DNA of 36,105 bases from Deltaproteobacteria bacterium (lineage in GTDB: Bacteria; Desulfobacterota; DSM-4660; Desulfatiglandales; Desulfatiglandaceae): NCBI GenBank assembly GCA_021737425.1, contig JAIPDZ010000008.1:1-36105 (forward strand). Direction: 5' to 3'. Every line of letters begins with the position of its first letter. Position 1 is the stretch's first letter. Of this stretch, positions 1,750 to 9,787 are shown in pieces. The notes beneath the pieces are model-generated. The model was given only the letters and a program-made list of their open reading frames with translations. It made no database searches and was not told the DNA's origin. The position numbers and the translations under genes are program-made.

Positions 1750-2814
1750 TTAGCGCCCAAAGATATTTCTTTGGATCAGCTCGATCTCTTCTGTGTTGGG
1801 CGGATAGGGGTAGTTCCACTGTTTCACATCCGGAAGACAATTTCCGAAAGGACGGTTGCAGGCGACTTTCCCCTCGTTATCCGTGCATCCGGTGGTCATA
1901 AAGGGTATGCCCGAATGGATTGCCGCGGTCACTTCATCTTGGGGACCGCCCATGTGGATGAGACGGCCTTCTGGACTGAAAGTCATGTCTTTCACGCGTA
2001 GAGATCGCTCTTCGATCATGTACCGGGCCAGTTGAACCCTCAGATAGGAATCCCAGGGGGGTTGGGGCCGATCCCATAATCGGGAGCCTTCTTCGGCAAA
2101 AAAGGAAAAAAGGTGGTTGCACACGCCCATGTGCCACAACCGGTCCATGAGGGTGATGATGTCTCTTTCGGTTTCGCCCATACCCACCATGAGATGGGCC
2201 CCGGTGTTATACGGCCCATAGATGTCAATGGCATGGGTCAGGATGTCCCAGTATTTCGCCCATCGGTGAGGGCCGGATACCCCCGTTCCCCGGTATTGGT
2301 CAAAAAGCGTCTGTGTGGTTAGATCCAGGGCCACCCCGATTTTATCCGCACCACTTTCCTGATAGCCCGTTAGATCGTCCCTGTCCAGGATGGTGGGCGC
2401 CACGAGAATGGATATGGGCAGATCGGTCTCCTGCTTGAGGCGTTGGGTCATTTCCATGGTGTGTCGGCGGCACTTTCCGTTGGTAATCATGGAAATGCAG
2501 GTTCGCTTCACATAATGGGGAGCCTTGTTGATGGCCTCAATGATCTGGTCCATGGAGAAAAGCGGCCAGTCCACATGGATGAAACTCTTGTCTTGATAGG
2601 TCCCGGGACGTTTTTTTGCCAAACCGCAATAGGCACAATTGGCTGAACACCCTTCATCATAATGCACCAGCAGGTTCACACACCGGTTTACCGCCCCCCT
2701 GTACATCCTGCCCTGAATGAGGTCCAGGGAAATGGCTGTGGCCTGGCTCATCTTGGCGTAAGCAGGGCTTTGGATTGGCGATTGGCGATTGGTGATTGAC
2801 GATTGAAAAGACAT
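1750..2814 (-). CDS. Radical SAM protein, candidate LipS1/LipS2-type lipoyl synthase subunit
   Basis: CSANCAYCGL radical SAM CxxxCxxC motif; further conserved C-terminal cysteines (TTGCTDNEGKVACNRPFGNC); genomic neighbour of lipoate ligase and H-protein. First ~21 residues (MSFQSSITNRQSPIQSPAYAK) derive from the heptad repeat arm; likely ancestral start at M22. Confidence 0.75.
   Translation of the reverse strand: MSFQSSITNRQSPIQSPAYAKMSQATAISLDLIQGRMYRGAVNRCVNLLVHYDEGCSANCAYCGLAKKRPGTYQDKSFIHVDWPLFSMDQIIEAINKAPHYVKRTCISMITNGKCRRHTMEMTQRLKQETDLPISILVAPTILDRDDLTGYQESGADKIGVALDLTTQTLFDQYRGTGVSGPHRWAKYWDILTHAIDIYGPYNTGAHLMVGMGETERDIITLMDRLWHMGVCNHLFSFFAEEGSRLWDRPQPPWDSYLRVQLARYMIEERSLRVKDMTFSPEGRLIHMGGPQDEVTAAIHSGIPFMTTGCTDNEGKVACNRPFGNCLPDVKQWNYPYPPNTEEIELIQRNIFGR
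2773..2807 (+). repeat. Left arm: five tandem 7-mers gattggc-gattggc-gattggt-gattgac-gattgaa
   Basis: Direct reading; 35 bp = 5 x 7, inverted relative to the arm at 3213-3247. Confidence 0.95.
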
Positions 2815-2835
2815 GATAAATCTGTACCTTCTGAT

Positions 2836-3192
2836 TTACGATCGGCCCTGCCGGGCGGTTTTTCTACTTGCGATAAAAATGGATGAAAGTTCATGCGCTT
2901 CGGTAAATAGAGGAACAATTTTTTCCTTTTGCATTAATTCCTCGTCCATAATGAATTCCAGCCAGAATTCAGACTCGTCTGTCTCTTCTATCACAATGCT
3001 CAGTTTGGAGATGAAGGCTGCCTTGGACTGCGATTGAAGGGCGGCCCGGTAATTGGCGGCAACCGATGTCGAACATCTTATCAATTGGCCGCTAACATGA
3101 TCGCCCAACTTTGTTTTGGGCAGAGACAAAGCGAGTTTCACGCATCGATGCGCAAAAGCCTTTGTTCTTCCTTTCAGTTCCTGAGCGTTCAA
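2836..3192 (-). CDS. Four-helix bundle protein (23S rRNA IVP / S23 family-like)
   Basis: 118 aa, TTG start; typical pattern ...LPKTKLGDHVSGQLIRCSTSVAANYRAALQSQSKAAFISKLSIVIEETDESEFWLEFI... Confidence 0.85.
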   Translation of the reverse strand: MNAQELKGRTKAFAHRCVKLALSLPKTKLGDHVSGQLIRCSTSVAANYRAALQSQSKAAFISKLSIVIEETDESEFWLEFIMDEELMQKEKIVPLFTEAHELSSIFIASRKTARQGRS

Positions 3193-3212
3193 TGGCTATT
3201 TGAGACCTCTTT

Positions 3213-3247
3213 TCCAATCAACAATCGCCAATCGTCAATCGCCAATC
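3213..3247 (-). repeat. Right arm: five tandem 7-mers (minus sense gattggc-gattgac-gattggc-gattgtt-gattgga)
   Basis: Direct reading; begins at the nucleotide right after the TAG stop (3250-3248) of the lipoate ligase gene. Confidence 0.95.
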
Positions 3248-4315
3248 CTACAGTCTCACCTGGTTCTCCTTGGCCAGCAAAATGGCCTGGGTCAGTGTGG
3301 GCAGATCCACCCCGTAGATCATGTCCTTTTCCCATACCGATTTCAGGTTCTTTTCAATATGCTCGGGCCGGGCCGAGGTCCATTTCAGGGCGTTTTCCAG
3401 ACGGTGTATCTGGGCGGATGTGGAGAAGAAATCGCCGGTGATCAATACACTCTCAATGCTGGCCCCTGACAGGGAAAGGTAGATTTCCAGAAGGCCTCCC
3501 TGACTCTTGAGCTGGCCCACCCCCATTCTGGACCTGGGATGCTTGTGGGAAAAGATCCATTCCCTTTTGGTGTAGCGGTTTTGAATATAATGCTGAATGG
3601 TCTGTTGCTCCCAGGGGTCGGGGCGATCTTCTTGGAAAGCAATGCCGAATTCCTGTTCAAAGGCCTGTTGGATTGCCTCCATCATGGATTCGACGGAGAG
3701 GTCATGCCCCAGTTGCTCCCTGACCGTGGTCATCCGTTGGCTGAAGCAGTTGTATCCCTTGTCCCGAACCTTGACGAGAGGGGTGTTCATGATGTCGAGC
3801 ATGAGGGAGACGTCAAAATCCACCAAGAGACTGGTGTGAAACAGCAAGCTATTGTCCGCCTCGGATGCAGCAGACAGACCCGCGATCTTTTTCCCTGCCG
3901 CCTCCAGATCGTTTTTAGGCTGAAAACAGGCTTCAATCCCCACCCACTGGAGGGCATGAATCAGCACCCGGCTTAGAGATTCAAATACGCCCCCCACGCC
4001 TTTTTTAAGGCCGGGATAGTCCACATTAATGCCCAGGCCCAGGGCCACCACCCTGGGGCCCATGATGACGGTACCCCCGCCGGTGCTCCGCCTGTTCACC
4101 GCTATCCCCCGGGCCTGACACCGCTCCAGCCGGAGCGCCGCCTCGATATCCTGATATTTCCCCACAATCACGGAAGGGACAAATGTATACAGGTGCAGTA
4201 TGGGGGGAGAGTGGTGTAAGGCCACGGACTGGGGCAGAGTGTCATCAATGGCCAGGCCTTCTTGAGTGGACAGCATATGCCCACTCCCCTTAAAAAGACG
4301 CCATGTATCCGGCAT
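3248..4315 (-). CDS. Lipoate-protein ligase, apparently LplA catalytic domain plus C-terminal LplB/accessory domain
   Basis: NRRSTGGGTVIMGP and NDLEAAGKKIAGLSA ligase motifs; C-terminal GVGQLKSQGGLLEIYLSLSGASIESVLITGDFF typical of lipoate ligase accessory domain. Confidence 0.85.
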   Translation of the reverse strand: MPDTWRLFKGSGHMLSTQEGLAIDDTLPQSVALHHSPPILHLYTFVPSVIVGKYQDIEAALRLERCQARGIAVNRRSTGGGTVIMGPRVVALGLGINVDYPGLKKGVGGVFESLSRVLIHALQWVGIEACFQPKNDLEAAGKKIAGLSAASEADNSLLFHTSLLVDFDVSLMLDIMNTPLVKVRDKGYNCFSQRMTTVREQLGHDLSVESMMEAIQQAFEQEFGIAFQEDRPDPWEQQTIQHYIQNRYTKREWIFSHKHPRSRMGVGQLKSQGGLLEIYLSLSGASIESVLITGDFFSTSAQIHRLENALKWTSARPEHIEKNLKSVWEKDMIYGVDLPTLTQAILLAKENQVRL

Positions 4316-7900: not shown

Positions 7901-9787
7901 ATGAATAGCAGAACTCTTATTCCGCTCAGCGAGCAGCTAAAACGAAATCCGCTTCCCCAGGGACCGGGGGTGTATCTGTTTAAGGATGCACAGGATCGAG
8001 TCATCTATGTGGGGAAGGCCAAAAATCTTCATAAGCGGGTTTTGTCCTACTTCAGGCCGGATGCGGATCTCTCCACAAAGACGGTGCTGATGATGAAGCG
8101 GGCCCAGGGACTGGGGTCCATATTGACGGCCACCGAGAAAGAGGCCTTTATCCTTGAAAGCAACCTGATCAAAAAATACCTGCCGCGGTATAACATCATA
8201 TTACGGGATGACAAGCGCTACCCCTGCCTTCGGCTGGACATTCATTCTCCGTTCCCGCATCTGCGCATTGTCAGAAAGATAAAAAAGGATGGCGCCCTCT
8301 ATTTTGGTCCGTTTTCTTCGGCCAATGCCGTTCGCAGTACCCACAGGGTGATCGACCGGGTGTTCAAGCTTCGCAAATGCAGACACCGGGAGTTGAAGAA
8401 ACGATCAAGACCCTGCCTGAATTTCCAGATGAATCGATGCTTGGCCCCCTGTTCCTACGCTATTTCCCCTGAACAATACGGCGACATCGTGCACCAGGTC
8501 CGGCTCTTTCTGGAGGGGCGAAACCAGGAACTCCTCAAACGTTTACGAAAAGACATGGATATTGCAGCTGCGGCATTGGATTTTGAAAAAGCGGCCGGGA
8601 TCCGGGACCAGATTGCGGCCATAGAAAAAACAGTGGAACGTCAGCATGTGGTTTCCCCCAGAATGGAGGATCAGGACGTGATCGGCATTTCCCGGAAGGG
8701 GAACCTGCACCAGGTGGTCCTGCTGTATGTCCGCAAAGGGTATTTGATGGGGACCCGCGGCTACCTCTTCAAGGATAAAACGGCTTCCCCTTCGGATATT
8801 TGTCAGGCCTTCTTAAAGCAGTACTATGCCCGTGGCGTCTTTTTACCCGCACAGATCCTTCTGTCTCATCCTGTTGAAGATCAGGCTGCCATCAATGAGT
8901 GGCTTTCCGGTCTGGCCGGGAAAAAGATCCTGATTCGGACCCCCCGACGGGGAGAGAAAAGAAAATTGATTTCCATGGCGGTTACCAATGCGGAGAATCT
9001 GCTTCAGCGACAGTCCGCAGATGCACAGGAGGATATTATGGATCGTGTCCAGCGGGCCTTAGGGTTACACAACCGCCCCAGGATCATTGAGGGACTGGAT
9101 ATTTCCAACCTCCATGGAGGCATGGCGGTGGGATCGGTGGTCTCTTTTGTGGGAGGGCAGCCCCATACAGCCGATTACAGAAACTATCGAATCAAGGACT
9201 TTGACGGCATTGATGATTACGGCATGATGGGCCAGTTGGTTGCACGGCGGTTGAAACAGGGCAACCTGCCGGATCTCTTTGTCATTGACGGCGGTAAAGG
9301 TCACCTGCGAGCGGTCAAGCGGGTGGTAGACGGATATGCGCGGGAGGCCGCCCTGCGGAAAGGATATGCAAAGGCTGCTGATACCCGTGGCCCTGTGCCG
9401 GGTCTTTTGTCCATTGCAAAACCGGATCGAAGCCGAAAAGAGACCTCCGACAGGATCTACATCCCCGGGCGGAAAAATCCGTTACCGTTGAGAGACGATG
9501 ACCCGGTTCTCCTGTTAATGATGCATATCCGGGACGAAGCCCACCGTCGGGCCATCGGGTATCACCGGAACTTGAGGAACAAAGGCCTGACCCACTCGGA
9601 CTTAAACGACATCCCCGGCGTGGGTCCCAAACGGAAGCAGCGTCTACTTCAACATTTCAATGGGTTACAAGAGATTTCGCAGGCCAGCGTAACGGCCCTG
9701 GAACAGGTCCCCGGCATCCATCACACCTTGGCCGAAGCCATTGCCTCTTTTTTCAAAGAGGGCCGGTCGTTTACGGAAGGAGGGTAA
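7901..9787 (+). CDS. uvrC: Excinuclease ABC subunit C
   Basis: GVYLFKDAQDRVIYVGKAKNLHKRVLSYF GIY-YIG motif; UVR region; C-terminal HhH (DLNDIPGVGPKRKQRLLQHF). Confidence 0.97.
   Translation: MNSRTLIPLSEQLKRNPLPQGPGVYLFKDAQDRVIYVGKAKNLHKRVLSYFRPDADLSTKTVLMMKRAQGLGSILTATEKEAFILESNLIKKYLPRYNIILRDDKRYPCLRLDIHSPFPHLRIVRKIKKDGALYFGPFSSANAVRSTHRVIDRVFKLRKCRHRELKKRSRPCLNFQMNRCLAPCSYAISPEQYGDIVHQVRLFLEGRNQELLKRLRKDMDIAAAALDFEKAAGIRDQIAAIEKTVERQHVVSPRMEDQDVIGISRKGNLHQVVLLYVRKGYLMGTRGYLFKDKTASPSDICQAFLKQYYARGVFLPAQILLSHPVEDQAAINEWLSGLAGKKILIRTPRRGEKRKLISMAVTNAENLLQRQSADAQEDIMDRVQRALGLHNRPRIIEGLDISNLHGGMAVGSVVSFVGGQPHTADYRNYRIKDFDGIDDYGMMGQLVARRLKQGNLPDLFVIDGGKGHLRAVKRVVDGYAREAALRKGYAKAADTRGPVPGLLSIAKPDRSRKETSDRIYIPGRKNPLPLRDDDPVLLLMMHIRDEAHRRAIGYHRNLRNKGLTHSDLNDIPGVGPKRKQRLLQHFNGLQEISQASVTALEQVPGIHHTLAEAIASFFKEGRSFTEGG

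Follow-up and report, generated by a model that had tools for sequence, protein, structure and literature searches.

The question raised by this locus is why one small gene lies between two inverted arrays of a degenerate heptamer at the junction of the host genes lplA and lipS2. The locus belongs to a 36,105-nt stretch of contig JAIPDZ010000008.1 from a Deltaproteobacteria bacterium (GCA_021737425.1), and this whole stretch is hereafter called the window. The gene (2836–3192, minus strand, TTG start) encodes a 118-residue four-helix-bundle (FHB) protein and is the single open reading frame (ORF) between two arms of five GATTGNN units each. The arm downstream of the gene (2773–2807, plus strand) reads GATTGGC, GATTGGC, GATTGGT, GATTGAC and GATTGAA, and the upstream arm (3213–3247, minus strand) reads GATTGGC, GATTGAC, GATTGGC, GATTGTT and GATTGGA, both directed inward. 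An earlier sequence-only reading of the window had reported the position of these arms, their inversion and the GATTGNN unit in all ten repeats, which proved exact. When GATTGNNGATTGNNGATTG was searched with up to 2 mismatches allowed, 6 matches were obtained in the window against 0.15 expected; all were exact and located within the two arms, and the arm pair was confirmed to be far beyond chance. We consider that the segment (approximately 2773–3247) is a copy of a widespread selfish cassette, composed of an S23/IVP-type FHB gene within inverted degenerate arrays whose unit is specific to the protein clade, and assign this reading a probability of roughly 0.55.

The window protein is a member of the TIGR02436/PF05635 (S23, 23S_rRNA_IVP) four-helix-bundle family. 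A profile search matched it to TIGR02436 (E = 3.7e-19; 68.9 bits against a curated cut-off of 24 bits) and to PF05635 (E = 4.1e-13; 49.9 bits against 33.8 bits), and its AlphaFold2 model formed a four-helix bundle with a mean pLDDT of 97.4, which agrees with the gene assignment made from the sequence alone. The protein also matched 2RLD (E = 6.7e-31), and a Foldseek search with the predicted fold returned 2RLD (TM 0.87), 2GSC and, more weakly, Avd (4DWL, 8UB7). No catalytic domain was found in the 118 residues by profile and fold comparison, PF05635 being the only domain match, and likewise no HUH/Y1 transposase was found in the window gene. As had been noted before, neither known context of the family is present, since the gene is not in 23S rRNA and the window contig has no RVT_1 match.

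The window arrangement is one case of a general rule. PF05635 gave ten matches in the genome of the window, and almost all of the other FHB genes there lie between inverted degenerate arrays with a different unit each time (GCAGNNN, GGTCANT, the 8-mer AGGTTCAG, GGGCANA, ACTTGAT and CGGAACN), GATTG being the unit of the window copy only. Two samples were compared: 77 non-redundant FHB genes from this genome and related ones, and about 80 named loci that represent at least 12 phyla; below, G numbers denote genomes related to that of the window and L numbers denote loci. Inverted arrays flank most of the 77 genes; their units are predominantly 7-mers, but 8- or 9-mers also occur. The exact 5 × 7 phasing stressed by the sequence-only reading is true locally but not special, as array length varies widely between FHB loci and also between strains. 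An inverted-arm score was calibrated on ORF-flanking and random positions within the same loci, and exceeded the 95th control percentile at 92% of 74 genes from the relatives and 91% of 82 genes from the named loci (Mann–Whitney p = 4e-23 and 2e-37, respectively), while direct-orientation scores remained mostly at background. Within the window subfamily and its neighbours, the pattern was observed in named genomes or plasmids of Cyanobacteria, Chloroflexota, Acidobacteria, Verrucomicrobia, Planctomycetes, Bacteroidota and Deltaproteobacteria, and likewise of Nitrospinia, Omnitrophota, Magasanikbacteria, Lentisphaerae, Bipolaricaulota and Spirochaetota. A control of 782 kb of random sequence, drawn from three genomes, contained 28 arrays, none of them within ORFs of at least 250 codons. 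Its one inverted array pair was a hairpin with a 19-bp gap, and inverted pairs of FHB size are nearly absent from it. Inverted array pairing is nearly specific to FHB genes.

The repeat unit also follows the protein. Array similarity between loci increases with FHB protein identity, the Mantel r being 0.43 for the relatives, 0.37 for the pan-bacterial sample and 0.52 for both (p = 0.001 each). Across phyla, the units of the window subfamily are mostly GATTNNN or GAATNNN (GATTTTA, GATTGCA, GATTGAC, GAATGCG) and the upstream arm reads toward the gene, with KATTGNN arrays beside the closest relatives of the window protein (68–76% identical); an exception is L006 in the same genome as the window, a member of this subfamily with the unit CGGAACN. 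Within the taxonomic family of the genome of the window, the GATTGNN load had a median of 34 in genomes encoding a protein closely related to that of the window, whether complete or fragmentary, and of 3 in those without one (p = 0.0016), and the association of load with a cognate FHB gene was retained at genus level (p = 0.001). This covariation of unit and protein, together with the higher load where the cognate protein occurs, makes it plausible that the FHB protein handles the repeats. The co-occurrence of GATTGNN arrays with FHB genes was seen as a difference in load, but most GATTGNN arrays elsewhere in the genome of the window enclose no FHB gene, and heptamer arrays without one were found in many intergenic regions. 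Against incomplete FHB lists, dispersed arrays could be matched to an FHB gene of the same genome in 3–4 of 6 cases in the genome of the window, 2–3 of 13 in G035 and 0 of 9 in G003. The attempt to assign every dispersed array to an FHB gene of its genome thus succeeded only in part.

The lplA–lipS2 neighbourhood was readable in the genome of the window and 27 relatives, and the cassette is present or absent at this one junction. The FHB gene was found only in the former and was missing in 27/27 relatives; a comparison of these junctions had been proposed in the sequence-only reading. The two host genes overlap at stop and start codons in G036 and are 16–37 bp apart in G010, G007, G063, G018, G029 and G028. 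In G066 and G004, the lplA stop codon is immediately followed by a GATTG array without an FHB gene, and ATTGAAT arrays occupy the junction in G001 and G015. The junction of G035 contains inverted GATTG arrays around about 210 bp, which has no homology to the FHB gene; a recognisable decayed FHB gene was therefore rejected, and the site is regarded as an FHB-less pair. At the corresponding junction of G068 (L213), an insert of ~740 bp holds two short ORFs and no FHB cassette. By eye, these ORFs resemble a BrnT/BrnA-type toxin–antitoxin pair.

Window-type FHB genes were located on other contigs in G035, G004, G066, G061, G008 and G012, where homology is mostly limited to the cassette and the flanks are unrelated between most of them, the shared loci being L237/L239 and L238/L240. 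Eight FHB copies in G055 are 77–95% identical over about 370–620 bp and have unrelated flanks. These copies (L281–L286, L079 and L291) constitute an element of ~600 bp with terminal inverted repeats (TIRs), 8-mer arrays and the FHB gene, present in at least eight copies in that genome. In strains of Planktothrix agardhii, the FHB gene is nearly identical and both arrays differ, mostly by whole 7-bp units; no empty plasmid site was found there, as 3/3 Planktothrix records carry the gene and show array changes only. A search for phage carriage of the cassette gave two distant matches only. The junction comparison and the related copies at other loci show that the cassette is mobile. The small mobile cassette of the sequence-only reading was thus retained on the basis of empty or partial sites, related copies elsewhere with matching arrays and the pan-bacterial association, but GATTGNN is not its marker, as the units are locus-specific. 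Invariant presence, a lack of empty sites and a lack of association between arrays and FHB genes had been named as outcomes that would speak against such a cassette, and none of the three was observed.

At operon-type sites, where both neighbours run in the same direction, the FHB gene was co-directional with the operon in 47/49 and 56/59 cases, i.e., 103/108, compared with 133/164 (133:31) for ordinary middle genes in the genome of the window (Fisher p = 5e-4). The distance between the start of the upstream array and the upstream stop codon was −7 to +15 bp in 64% of 90 cases, to which the short intergenic gaps of operons may contribute in part. Among 70 elements, the predicted RNA fold had the two arrays paired with each other along half of their length or more in 76% (median z −3.2), and the window arms were paired in both the minimum-free-energy and the centroid structure (z −4.15). 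The orientation bias favours a transcript-linked life of the element. These predictions support a cassette in sense orientation in the operon transcript, usually beginning at the upstream stop codon, so that the FHB gene can be expressed by read-through of the host operon. The two arrays are predicted to form a stem that encloses the ORF, which is the layout of 23S rRNA intervening sequences (IVSs). We speculate that a pentameric FHB protein of the Avd fold binds the repeat of its own cassette, either as RNA or as single-stranded DNA. The protein might then steer host enzymes, by which the hairpin is copied or inserted and arrays are seeded or extended, and FHB-less pairs and solo arrays would represent non-autonomous derivatives or scars.

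Several observations weigh against this selfish-cassette reading. Shuffling the unit order left the arm complementarity unreduced; the arms are therefore preserved neither as exact copies nor as an optimised stem, and it is the unit that is conserved. The orientation bias may result from selection for read-through expression alone, and the FHB proteins are only mildly basic, with a mean net charge of about +2. The array-rich genomes G064, G001, G065 and G015 have no close cognate FHB gene, which means that arrays may persist after the gene is lost or outnumber it. Many dispersed arrays have a unit unlike any of those sampled beside the FHB genes of their genome. One FHB gene, in a CRISPR operon, lacks arrays on either side. 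Two FHB families possess conventional-looking outer TIRs and may be carried by an ordinary transposon, and no target-site duplication was identified.

Among the alternatives, a DNA-level two-component element resembling REP/REPIN and RAYT (TnpA_REP) survives best, although we regard it as rather unlikely. The FHB protein would here bind the DNA arrays and move array-flanked DNA in trans with a host recombinase or the replication fork, RNA pairing being incidental. REP/RAYT and the cassette are alike in having a gene within its own inverted repeats and many non-autonomous copies, the flanking inverted repeats of the window cassette also occur dispersed, and co-diversification of repeat and protein has been reported for REP/RAYT (PMC3116915). 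The symmetric, inward-pointing arms, the dispersed solo arrays and FHB-less pairs, and the trans-type correlation of GATTGNN load with the cognate FHB gene are all consistent with such an element, and a unit order that is not conserved suggests that single units are bound and that a precise stem is not required. However, the 118-residue protein has no catalytic domain, and the bias at the operon-type sites has no reason in a symmetric DNA element, except by later selection. The FHB cassette further differs from REP/RAYT in lacking an HUH/Y1 transposase, in having tandem 7-mers instead of palindromes, and in being itself multi-locus and horizontally spread.

It is less probable still that the FHB cassettes hitch-hike, moved by unrelated TIR transposons or by recombination, with the arrays being slippage-prone simple repeats tolerated at operon junctions. 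The whole-unit changes in copy number between Planktothrix strains are consistent with slippage, and additional inverted ends do lie outside the arrays in the G055 copies (5' GGATCATCTCCCGATTAGTTG, 3' CAACTAAATTGGAGAAGAACC) and in the MRDHTKLRAF group (GTAACTAC.CAGGT). In these two families the cassette is therefore carried within a TIR element or has turned into one. As they are the FHB families with resolvable ends, the proposal of the sequence-only reading that the arms are terminal recognition sequences or transposition ends does not hold in general. On the other hand, slippage yields neither inverted arms with a common unit nor an agreement of unit and protein clade that extends across phyla, random arrays almost never form inverted pairs, and no TIRs were found beyond the arrays of the window copy. 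The fixed TIRs with target duplication that are typical of miniature inverted-repeat transposable elements and insertion sequences are accordingly not seen in the window copy, while the G055 and MRDHTKLRAF copies have TIRs in which duplications were not found.

We attach little credence to a retroelement accessory role, in which the FHB protein would act like Avd of diversity-generating retroelements with a reverse transcriptase in trans, writing the degenerate repeats. Avd is homologous to PF05635 (PMC10053308), its fold (4DWL, 8UB7) is common with the window protein, and variable positions in a fixed frame suggest templated writing. However, no reverse-transcriptase (RVT_1) match exists on the window contig, and none was found in G035, which has the most GATTGNN matches (313), or in G001, G065 and G066. 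No template or variable repeat was encountered either, no search aimed at these repeats having been made. A reverse transcriptase is therefore not needed, and dependence on it was rejected. G010 gave 51 reverse-transcriptase matches, many with identical scores, which perhaps reflect a recent expansion, possibly of group II introns. In the weakest alternative, the arrays would be ordinary repeats of the host that regulate, for instance, translation where operon genes adjoin, and the FHB gene would be a resident of the operon. This agrees with the many intergenic arrays without an FHB gene and with the regulation proposed in earlier papers (PMC4679880, PMC2700814). The scattering of FHB loci and the nearly FHB-specific inverted pairing speak against it, and the FHB-less orthologous junctions (27/27) refute it for the cassette, but it could still fit solo arrays.

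The 23S rRNA IVS with an S23p ORF, known in Coxiella and Leptospira, is the closest known kind, but its defining site is not that of the window cassette. Both share the protein family, and the IVS has its ORF in sense orientation in the loop of a terminal inverted-repeat stem, with a length of ~430–480 nt; a stem around the ORF is also predicted for the window cassette. The Coxiella IVS encodes a protein of the S23 family and has 2–3 tandem heptamers (GACAGAT plus GACAGAA) beside the ORF, varying between strains (PMC4990558). The window cassette differs in that its host is a protein operon, between lplA and lipS2, rather than a 23S rRNA helix, and that degenerate tandem arrays, with a unit following the protein clade, form arms on both sides. 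The window arms also satisfy the STRR-type description of degenerate tandem heptamers, and the available text of earlier reports describes similar intergenic 7–8-mers, some of them paired on opposite strands: GGGAATC arrays in Xanthomonas, where two species have 70 and 75 convergent pairs, and GGGGAYT arrays in Nostoc (PMC4692102), TAACTGA arrays in Beggiatoaceae and cyanobacteria (PMC4679880), and paired octa/heptamer sites in Geobacter (PMC2700814). That text makes no link to four-helix-bundle genes, and literature searches, with subscription papers and bioRxiv preprints mostly outside their coverage, found no report of one. Many of the described arrays may be the non-autonomous part of the FHB system, and there is a real chance that the FHB cassette is a class of its own.

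The pattern suggests that a common type of selfish element has until now gone unnoticed. More tentatively, and at somewhat less than even odds, we suggest a transposase-free class in which a small pentameric FHB protein recognises a short degenerate tandem repeat in the transcript or DNA of its own element, with 23S rRNA IVSs and orphan heptamer repeats, including those of cyanobacteria, Xanthomonas and others, as parts of one system. Specificity would evolve by drift of the unit, and arrays would be seeded genome-wide. If true, a common protein family of so far unassigned function would gain a genomic role, a bacterial heptamer repeat class left unexplained in earlier papers would be accounted for, and the 23S rRNA IVSs would fall within a broader family of elements inserting between operon genes. 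Because the repeat unit changes with the protein clade, the recognition code can be tested directly, and the FHB protein is small and of known fold.

The host genes on both sides of the window cassette are on the minus strand. The upstream arm starts directly after the stop codon of the lipoate-protein ligase gene (lplA, 3248–4315). The downstream arm falls within the 5' coding end of the gene for a LipS2-like lipoyl synthase of the radical SAM type (1750–2814), so the statement that the arms enclose one gene and nothing else is correct for the ORF between them but overlooks this overlap. The N-terminus of the LipS2-like product reads MSFQSSITNRQSPIQ-SPAYAK, of which MSFQSSITNRQSPIQ is arm-encoded, compared with MSKQQSPEYAK in the relatives. 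A minus-strand neighbour of these two enzymes, named by eye from its ORF, is presumably GcvH-like.

FHB cassettes were also observed inside defence-type operons on Planktothrix, Gloeocapsa and Chlorohelix plasmids (L117, L118, L119), in the orders drmD–FHB–MmeI (DISARM) and DUF1156–FHB–Swt1/HEPN (two phyla). The array-less FHB gene mentioned above (L323, G003 contig 1, 9117–11429) belongs to a type I-E CRISPR-Cas operon, where its neighbours are cas1e and a Cas6e-type (PF08798) gene, and is possibly a domesticated copy; its coding sequence has an apparent internal array of CAAATNT-type heptamers near the C-terminal part. At L034 (contig 8 of the genome of the window, 8365–8477), the gene for an ArsA-like ATPase is apparently interrupted in its coding part by two arrays, one GCAGAGG-type and one CAATCAC-type. 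At L033, L035, L037 and L039, a dispersed repeat that carries the motif CATTCCGG..GAATCCAG occurs beside or between GATTGNN arrays, an example being the FHB-less array pair at L035 (4902–5275).
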